DNA from: Sanguibacter gelidistatuariae
GTDB lineage: Bacteria > Actinomycetota > Actinomycetes > Actinomycetales > Cellulomonadaceae
Assembly: GCF_900096585.1 (NCBI RefSeq)
Contig: NZ_FMYH01000001.1
Location: 620,001 to 684,000, forward strand
Direction: 5' to 3'
DNA: 64,000 nt
Shown piece after piece: positions 28,197 to 30,632 of the stretch. A model generated the notes under the pieces. It did not search any database, was not told the DNA's origin, and saw nothing but the letters and a program-made list of their open reading frames with translations. Position 1 is the stretch's first letter, and each line of letters begins with the position of its first letter. The position numbers and the translations under genes are program-made.

Positions 28197-28202
28197 CGCG
28201 CA

Positions 28203-28220
28203 TGGAAGGGTACCCTTCCA
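28203..28220. promoter_or_regulatory. 18-bp perfect palindrome between TetR gene and unknown gene
   Basis: TGGAAGGGTACCCTTCCA is perfectly symmetric and sits 7 bases from the TetR operator in the divergent gap before the unknown gene at 28349. It is probably an operator for a different regulator, or a second control site of the same region. Confidence 0.6.
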
Positions 28221-28348
28221 CGAACCTTCTACGGCCCAGCGAGGGCGGCCGGGCGGGCAGCGCGACGCCTGAGCGCCGCCGAAAGCGTACGCACAGCCGT
28301 TTCATACCGGAAACGTCCTGGCATTCTTCGCTGCGTAGCGTGACCAAG

Positions 28349-29254
28349 ATGACAACAGCCTTCGGCGTCACCGGCCCCGACCCCGTAGCAGGTCCCGTGT
28401 TCGCGGTGCCGGCGAGCGCGCCGATCGAGACGCTCGCCCGGGCCTGGTACCCGGCCGCCCGCTGGCTCCGTGAGCCCGTCACCGCCGAGGCGGTGGCCGC
28501 CCGCACGGTCCCGTTGCGCGGTGCACGGTTCCGCGGCATGTCGACCGTGGCGGAGCCGGAGCCTGGTGAGCTCGAGCTCGAAGACGGCGTCGTGCTCACC
28601 GGCCCGAGCCCGCTCCCGCCGGACCGCTACCAGGGGCTCGGCCTGACGGCCCAGCGGGTTGACGTCTTCGGCGTGCGCATCGACGGGGCCGACGCGGCGT
28701 CCCGCGCGGAGCGCGAGGTCAGGGTGCTGCGGTGGATGGTCGCGGCCGCCCGGCACGCCCGGGGTGCTGTCGTCGTCGAGGGCGCAGACACGGCGATCCC
28801 CCTCGACCCCAGGCGCTCGGTCAACCGGCATCTCTTCAGCGCCCTCACGCTCGACCCCGGCCACGCCCTCGCGCTCGTGCGCACGGTCCTGGTGCAGGCC
28901 ACGCTCGAGACCGTGGGCCCGGATCCGAGCGCCCCCCAGAACTTCGAGATCGTCACGCACACTCCCTACGACGGGTCTGTCGTCGTGCGCTGCGAACGGG
29001 CAGGCAGCCTTCCCCCGGCGTTGCGCACCATCCCCTGGCGGGAGTCCGGCCCCTTCGGCTACTCGGTGCGGTGGTTGTCGGGAGACGCTCACCAGGAGCG
29101 ATCGGAGAGCCCGTCCCACATGTATCAGATTGCCCGCCACCGGATGGCGCCGGTCGTGGTCGACGTCGTCTCTGTCCTGCGTGACGCGGTCGCGGGCACC
29201 GTGCTCGACGACGACGGCTTCATCTGCACGGATCCGCCCGTCCGGTCCCGCTGA
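28349..29254 (+). CDS. Hypothetical protein, paralogue of the protein at 39937-41016
   Basis: About 301 residues from the ATG at 28349 (a GTG at 28340 adds three). I do not recognise a family. No membrane helix or signal peptide is seen. It shares a layout with the 359-residue protein at 39937. A WMVAAARHARGAVVVEG segment parallels WLVAVGRRLGGSLFFEV, an SVNRHLFSALTLDPGHA segment parallels SVDLTVYSDVWLDPAAA, and the ends have similar TYEVRW/GYSVRW strands before a final helix. It is divergent from the TetR gene across two palindromes. Function is unknown. Confidence 0.75.
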   Translation: MTTAFGVTGPDPVAGPVFAVPASAPIETLARAWYPAARWLREPVTAEAVAARTVPLRGARFRGMSTVAEPEPGELELEDGVVLTGPSPLPPDRYQGLGLTAQRVDVFGVRIDGADAASRAEREVRVLRWMVAAARHARGAVVVEGADTAIPLDPRRSVNRHLFSALTLDPGHALALVRTVLVQATLETVGPDPSAPQNFEIVTHTPYDGSVVVRCERAGSLPPALRTIPWRESGPFGYSVRWLSGDAHQERSESPSHMYQIARHRMAPVVVDVVSVLRDAVAGTVLDDDGFICTDPPVRSR

Positions 29255-29326
29255 GCTCGGCGCGCACCACCGCCAGCACATGAACGTCCGGCGACCTCCG
29301 GGTGAACAGGCGTCCCGCGTCCCGAG

Positions 29327-29405
29327 TTGTCCACAGAATTTGTCCACAGGCCTGTGCGTATGTGGAGAAGTACAGTGCACAGGCTGTGGATAACACTGTG
29401 GACAA
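29327..29405. promoter_or_regulatory. Cluster of four DnaA boxes
   Basis: TTGTCCACA occurs at 29327-29335 and 29340-29348. The complementary orientation occurs as TGTGGATAA at 29385-29393 and TGTGGACAA at 29397-29405. All four are perfect high-GC actinobacterial or classical DnaA boxes. The pairs face each other, with start spacings of 13 and 12 bases, across a 36-base centre. The surrounding gene-free interval (29255-29552) also has a GCCTGTGCGTA direct repeat (near 29350 and 29439) and a tandem GCCACAGTGA (29499-29518). No dnaA, dnaN or gyr genes are nearby. Confidence 0.85.
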
Positions 29406-29552
29406 CAGCCCGGGCGATCACCTCCGAACGCCTGTGCGTAGGTGTTTGTACCGGTCCCGCGAACTGCTCGACACGTCGTCCGAGCCTGCGCAATGCCACA
29501 GTGAGCCACAGTGAGCGGTGCACCGGCCGAAGGAGGCGGCTAGCCTCGACAG

Positions 29553-30632
29553 ATGAGCAACCTCGAGACCGCGCCGCAGGAAGAGATCTGCGCGGCCGGG
29601 CACGCCGGTCCGCGCGAACGCAGCCTCGAGATCCTGGAGCCCCGCCTGGTCCCGCTCGGCGGCCCCCGCGCCATGACCGTCCGGCGCACGCTTCCCCAGC
29701 GCCAGCGCAGCATGGTGGGTGCGTGGTGCTTCCTCGACCACTACGGGCCCGACGACGTCTCGACCGGACCTGGCATGCACGTCCCGCCCCACCCGCACAC
29801 CGGTCTGCAGACCGTCTCCTGGCTGTTCGCCGGCGACGTGCTCCACCAGGACTCCGTGGGATCGGTGTGCATGGTGCGCCCCGGGGAGCTCAACCTCATG
29901 ACGGCAGGGCGCGGGATCTCCCACTCGGAGCAGTCGCCGGACCCGGCGGCCACCCGGGTGCCGGTCCTCCACGGCGTCCAGCTGTGGACGGCGCTCCCGG
30001 CGGCCCACCTGGATGCCTCGCCCTCCTTCGAGCACCATGGCGACCTCCCTGTCCTGCACGCACCGGGCGCCAGCGTCCGGGTGTTCCTGGGCGAGCTGCC
30101 CGCGCAGGCGCGCCTCGGCGCGCCCGACGGCCTGCGCTCGCCAGCGACGATCTTCTCCCCGCTCGTGGGCGCCCAGATCGACCTCGCCGCCGGCGCCGAG
30201 CTGACCCTTGAGCTCGACCCGACCTTCGAGCACGCCGTGCTGCTGGACACCGCCGAGCAGGTCCTCGTCGACGGCGACCCGCTGGCCCGCTCCGAGCTCG
30301 GTTTCCTCCCCGCCGGAGCACGCCAGGTCACGCTGCGCACGCCTGACGCCGCTGCCCGCCTCCTCCTCATCGGCGGCCGACCCTTCGAGGAGGAGATCGT
30401 CATGTGGTGGAACTTTGTCGGCCGCACGCACGAGGACATCGTCCAGGCACGTGCCGACTGGGAGCGTCAGCTGAGCGAGCCGAGCGCGGCGGGGATCGGT
30501 GGAGAGAAGTCACCATCGCCAGATCCCGTCGACGTGGCTAGGTTTGGCACGGTCGTCGGGTACGACGGCCCGTCGCTGCCAGCCCCGGTGCTGCCCGCCG
30601 TGCGTCTGACTCCCCGAAGGAACGCCCCCTGA
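29553..30632 (+). CDS. Pirin-family protein
   Basis: 359 residues. The N-terminal cupin holds the pirin metal site PPHPHTGLQT and HSEQ (two His in HxH, then His and Glu), and the C-terminal pirin_C domain ends with EEEIVMWWNFVGRTHEDI. Pirins are Fe-binding, some with quercetinase-like or regulatory activity. The substrate cannot be read from sequence. The ATG is 6 bases after TAGCCT, suggesting a leaderless mRNA. The ~50-residue C-terminal extension is Pro/Ser-rich. Confidence 0.92.
   Translation: MSNLETAPQEEICAAGHAGPRERSLEILEPRLVPLGGPRAMTVRRTLPQRQRSMVGAWCFLDHYGPDDVSTGPGMHVPPHPHTGLQTVSWLFAGDVLHQDSVGSVCMVRPGELNLMTAGRGISHSEQSPDPAATRVPVLHGVQLWTALPAAHLDASPSFEHHGDLPVLHAPGASVRVFLGELPAQARLGAPDGLRSPATIFSPLVGAQIDLAAGAELTLELDPTFEHAVLLDTAEQVLVDGDPLARSELGFLPAGARQVTLRTPDAAARLLLIGGRPFEEEIVMWWNFVGRTHEDIVQARADWERQLSEPSAAGIGGEKSPSPDPVDVARFGTVVGYDGPSLPAPVLPAVRLTPRRNAP

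Follow-up and report, generated by a model that had tools for sequence, protein, structure and literature searches.

What is the role of a compact group of DnaA boxes that lies in a non-coding gap, far from dnaA? The question is raised by a 79-bp element of a Sanguibacter genome. The window, that is, the whole 64-kb stretch of DNA analysed here, corresponds to C17:620001-684000 of a 4.04-Mb genome, and dnaA is located at C17:437133, approximately 212 kb from the element. The element lies within a 298-bp intergenic gap (29255-29552) and is thus, like datA, a non-coding cluster outside oriC. A DnaA with the C-terminal DNA-binding domain is encoded in the host genome. In a preliminary description of the window, the boxes were considered as a site of datA or DARS type, as an accessory site flanking oriC, or as a means of controlling the adjacent pirin gene by DnaA. 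According to the analysis described here, the element probably serves to control the initiation of DNA replication from a distance.

Arrangement of the boxes

The preliminary description placed four perfect DnaA boxes in two facing pairs within 79 bp, with start spacings of 13 and 12 bp around a 36-base centre. All four boxes are present at these places, and both the spacings and the centre (29349-29384) are confirmed. The features of the region are as follows.

28202..29254, + strand: upstream gene, assigned to no family of Pfam or NCBIfam, used as the anchor for the ortholog survey
29327..29405, unstranded: whole DnaA-box element, from the box scan; profile match at 29322-29412 (70 bits)
29327..29335, + strand: DnaA box 1, TTGTCCACA, perfect TTRTCCACA
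29340..29348, + strand: DnaA box 2, TTGTCCACA, 13 bp from box 1
29353..29356, - strand: TGTG half-site, starting 13 bp after the start of box 2; a third box, degenerate and reversed (TGTGCGTAT)
29361..29369, - strand: extra box TTCTCCACA with one mismatch, from the box scan
29370..29384, unstranded: remainder of the 36-bp centre, with moderate conservation among the Sanguibacter genomes; a partner protein may bind here
29385..29393, - strand: DnaA box 4, TTATCCACA, perfect TTRTCCACA
29397..29405, - strand: DnaA box 5, TTGTCCACA, 12 bp from box 4
29553..30632, + strand: downstream pirin gene, given as context; its link to the element is lost in genome G001

The sequence TTGTCCACA is a high-affinity box type in M. 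tuberculosis and S. coelicolor, according to the available text of PMC4285127. The one-mismatch box TTCTCCACA is found at the same place in G005, the closest species, and is not general to the element. In an alignment of 28 elements, the TGTG at offset 26 is invariant (28/28, 2.0 bits per position), and the linker after box 1 (GATT, positions 18-21) shows 1.39 bits per position. The four boxes show means of 1.66, 1.48, 1.65 and 1.07 bits per position in 5' to 3' order, the centre 0.7-0.9 and the flanks 0.23-0.36. As the 28 elements were chosen for their layout, the conservation of the boxes is partly by construction; this does not apply to the TGTG, the centre or the linkers.

The pattern TTNTCCACA occurs five times in the 64-kb window, and all five sites are inside the element, against 0.40 expected and at most two in 100 shuffles. 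In the host genome (4,040,166 bases), 38 sites of TTNTCCACA are present, 28 of which are TTRTCCACA, compared with 21 for the pattern read backwards. At this genome density, a simple Poisson estimate gives approximately 5e-10 clusters of at least four boxes within 79 bp. Both the shuffles and the Poisson expectation are exceeded by a wide margin, and the earlier judgement that a chance origin of the four boxes is very unlikely holds.

The flanking direct repeats that had also been mentioned are present as short two-copy families, one of 22 nt at 82% (29343 and 29423) and one of 10 nt occurring twice (29495 and 29505). The consensus of the Gram-positive LexA box is CGAAC-N4-GTTCG. Just 3' of the element, at 29425-29438 of the window, CGAACGCCTGTGCG resembles this box, and at the corresponding place in G005 (locus L055, reverse strand) CGAACGCCTGTTCG is a perfect LexA-type box.

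Conservation of the element

The preliminary description proposed that close relatives be inspected for loss of the boxes. The element is kept in all six Sanguibacter genomes, and its spacing is conserved. A 601-bp DNA search detected it in G001, G002, G003, G005 and the genome of the window itself, that is, in five of the six; in the sixth, G004, it was located by the profile and then read directly. Over the 15 genome pairs, the mean identity of the element is 75% ungapped and 77% gapped, whereas the adjacent 79-bp flanks give 28-32% ungapped and 52-55% gapped, which is the chance level. The contrast between element and flanks is smaller in G005, because the whole region still aligns there at 73%.

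At the family level, 111 loci of relatives of the upstream gene were surveyed. Counting paralogs, 217 of 221 family genomes contain a relative of this gene, for which neither Pfam nor NCBIfam has a family. In the 111 loci, 378 sites differ from TTRTCCACA by one letter at most; the reversed pattern gives 46. The most frequent distances are 13 for boxes of equal orientation (57 loci) and, for boxes that face each other, 45 and 58 (each in 43 loci). The layout 0(+), 13(+), 58(-), 70(-), called when at least 28 of 36 letters match, is present in 52 of the 111 loci, which represent 12 genera by kinship labels. It is found in none of them with reversed letters, nor with any of eight random layouts, a control that is partly post hoc since the layout was picked after the box survey had been seen. 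The layout is below the threshold at the other 59 ortholog loci, 43 of which belong to one large genus, g4. In this genus, boxes near the anchor gene, when present, are mostly upstream of the gene with the 13/45 spacing. In several genera (L133, L135, L155, L160 and other loci), tandem pairs of elements, approximately 170-330 bp apart, are located downstream of the anchor gene.

The element was also searched for with a profile built from sequence only. Matches were obtained in 216 of 221 family genomes (E<=0.01), 208 of 396 order genomes (E<=1e-3) and 46 of 394 class genomes (E<=1e-5); the three samples overlap, and the weak matches may represent DnaA-box clusters of the ordinary type. Matches of up to 60 bits occur in one class-level family, whose genomes measure 4.7-7.9 Mb. 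When named genomes were scanned for the exact pattern, 98 stretches were obtained. The matches listed include Promicromonospora, Isoptericola, Cellulosimicrobium, Cellulomonas, Actinotalea and Georgenia, as well as Occultella, Myceligenerans, Demequina, Paraoerskovia, Schaalia and Phytoactinopolyspora.

Genomic position and neighbouring genes

The preliminary description located the boxes away from any replication gene, and this is correct for the annotated part of the window: dnaA is approximately 212 kb off and a dnaB-like gene approximately 181 kb off. Because of the 212-kb distance from dnaA, the proposed role as an accessory site flanking oriC is unlikely. The distance was compared among 22 contigs of at least 2.4 Mb for which the place of dnaA, the best match and the contig size were all known (for one of them, G127, the contig was assumed to close into a circle). 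In all 22, the best profile match is located within 16.8% of the contig from dnaA, on either side, with a median of 10.7% and a range of 84-654 kb. Two genomes, G165 and G167, have their relative of the upstream gene approximately 1.87 Mb from dnaA (44-45% of the chromosome) and the best element at 12.5%; it is not certain that these two gene matches are true orthologs. On the dnaA-bearing contig C17, 18 of the 38 TTNTCCACA sites are present on 26% of the genome. Boxes are thus denser near the origin, and the nearness of the element to oriC may partly reflect this. Since the genomes are related and the boxes crowd near the origin, no probability was put on the position.

Outside the 22 contigs, the best matches of G055 and G075 (L363 and L364) are partial and lie 28 and 30 kb from dnaA. 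These cover only positions 22-87 of the model, and the second matches are at 15%. They were considered as clusters of the type located upstream of dnaB, and this assignment was rejected, as tblastn detected no dnaB within 3.0-3.5 kb around them.

The element is independent of its neighbouring genes. In the window, the pirin gene starts approximately 150 bp beyond the element. In G001, the element adjoins the upstream gene and a TetR gene; pirin is absent from the 5.5 kb examined and is located instead at C1:181398-182339, with no TTRTCCACA box in the 600 nt around the gene start. In G004, the genes before the element are a TetR gene, with 82% identity, and one like DinB. Many genera of the family have relatives of TetR and pirin as neighbours, part of family f13 has TetR, a CopD/CtaG gene takes this place in family f9 and in Demequina, and a cytidylyltransferase-like (NadD-like) gene in f17. 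In a Cellulomonas record, an MMPL gene is located approximately 1 kb from the element. Because G001 keeps the element without an adjacent pirin gene and without a box at its pirin gene, and because the neighbours differ in other families, the control of pirin by DnaA that had been suggested is unsupported.

Possible functions

Judging from sequence, we consider on balance that the element acts as a DnaA assembly site outside oriC, which would adjust initiation at oriC in trans. A DnaA oligomer of defined form would be held by the facing pairs of high-affinity boxes across the fixed centre, and the centre would probably take a bend or a partner protein. DnaA would be held in a fixed face-to-face complex. 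As the element is near the origin, it would double in copy soon after initiation, and the duplicated element would leave less DnaA free or active, so that re-initiation would be held back. A comparable effect is exerted by datA in E. coli and by clusters of DnaA boxes in Streptomyces and Bacillus. We infer that DnaA binds the boxes, and repression is favoured as the sign of the effect over reactivation or mere titration.

Reactivation of the DARS type would mean that the opposed boxes assemble ADP-DnaA head to head, that ADP is released and that initiation is promoted. Opposed boxes with fixed spacing are the stated hallmark of the DARS core in the available part of the review PMC5742627, and the layout of the element is rigid. 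However, the element has two + boxes facing two - boxes, 36 bp apart, and no more than a half-site at +26, and the origin-proximal position is more like that of datA as far as this source describes it; we regard reactivation as unlikely, although it deserves consideration. Passive titration, in which the boxes would hold DnaA and leave its nucleotide state unchanged, agrees with the presence of four perfect boxes in 79 bp, and origin-proximal boxes are argued to titrate in E. coli (PMC12371093, available text). For such a role, however, neither the fixed 13/45/12 geometry nor the conserved linkers (1.39 bits against 0.23-0.36 in the flanks) are required, and passive titration is judged to be distinctly unlikely.

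Transcription of pirin or of the upstream gene could instead be controlled locally by DnaA. The short distance to the pirin start and the same upstream gene beside the element in many genera are consistent with such control, whereas G001 has the element and not pirin, the element elsewhere adjoins a CopD/CtaG, NadD-like or TetR gene, and in most g4 loci the boxes are upstream, not downstream, of the anchor gene; local control is thus quite improbable. A hairpin RNA, a terminator or another palindrome, in which the DnaA boxes would be incidental, is very improbable. The strand folds unusually well (z -6.5, with 0 of 200 shuffles as good), but no covariation was observed: paired cells amount to 84.3% versus 83.8% in shuffles, the covariation score is 0.123 versus 0.122, and the 3' box varies independently. 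Pairing without covariation indicates conservation of the set of boxes rather than of the hairpin, despite the good fold of the single strand. The search against Rfam gave two matches only, both far below the gathering scores, and no terminator or promoter was found at the element when these were looked for. DnaA-box clusters are the core of replication origins according to the part of PMC4285127 available, and a secondary or ectopic origin, or what is left of an integrated replicon, was also considered. Such an origin is extremely improbable, because dnaA and dnaN do not adjoin the element, the element is just 79 bp in length, and an AT-rich unwinding region is missing (the 40-mer of lowest GC in 29001-29800 has 47.5% GC). 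A second oriC is unsupported, with dnaA 212 kb away and no AT-rich unwinding element.

The reading of the element as a DnaA assembly site outside oriC can be extended to other genera. It is possible, although we put this forward tentatively, that actinomycetes share an old, dedicated cis-acting site for remodelling DnaA, a counterpart of datA and DARS that is derived from neither. Its rigid layout of facing pairs across a conserved centre would stay origin-proximal while the neighbours change, and would assemble a DnaA oligomer in order to switch or inactivate DnaA. The suggestion of a role like that of datA or DARS is well motivated, since the element and its spacing are kept in all six genomes of the genus and the element far beyond. 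Little is known of how actinobacteria limit initiation to a single round per cycle. Should the element work as proposed, it would offer a defined 79-bp target across many laboratory-tractable genera, and the geometry of DnaA assembly and the question of titration versus switch would become testable outside E. coli. The profile is a means of finding the element in other genomes.

Comparison with known systems

The preliminary description regarded loci of this kind as barely described in actinobacteria. This needs qualifying: a DnaA-box cluster near oriC of S. coelicolor represses untimely initiation (Smulczyk-Krawczyszyn et al. 2006, as cited in the available text of the reviews PMC4585315 and PMC5742627). 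The particular layout was not found described in the literature searched, including that on Cellulomonas and Micrococcales, and this is weak evidence of absence as subscription papers are mostly outside that literature. In the same two reviews, as far as their available parts go, datA-like clusters are given for both B. subtilis and S. coelicolor. The clusters of S. coelicolor and of B. subtilis (Okumura et al. 2012) are likened to the element through these reviews. The element and the Streptomyces-type clusters share multiple boxes of the TTGTCCACA type close to oriC yet outside it.

Another cluster is present in the same genome, at C17:467903-467978 of G000 (L033:1404-1479). It contains three perfect boxes and is located approximately 130 bp upstream of a gene with the DnaB N- and C-terminal domains. 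Like the element, it has TTATCCACA twice facing TTGTCCACA, within 76 bp. It differs in its 12-bp spacing and extra boxes, and scores 26 bits with the profile, against 70 for the element.

The likeness to datA and DARS is one of described features. In the case of datA, which is approximately 10 min from oriC in E. coli (PMC5742627, available text), the element shares the features of a non-coding, origin-proximal DnaA-box cluster outside oriC (PMC5742627), and of sequence and spacing under selection (PMC4585315), as the accessible parts of these reviews describe them. However, the essential boxes of datA have one shared direction (PMC5742627), whereas the element has two + and two - boxes that face each other, an arrangement that DARS has only partly; the boxes of datA flank an IHF site, and an IHF-type site is not obvious in the 36-bp centre of the element. 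In the case of DARS1 and DARS2 of E. coli, the same available text (PMC5742627) gives a compact core with fixed spacing and opposed box orientation. Opposed boxes and a fixed spacing are seen in the element as well, but the number of boxes and the geometry differ: the DARS core consists of three boxes with box I opposite to II and III, and the element of two pairs of facing boxes and the TGTG half-site across 36 bp. As the opposed boxes recall DARS and the position recalls datA, the element is assigned to neither. DnaA-box clusters as a kind are already known; what is new in the element is its conserved layout.
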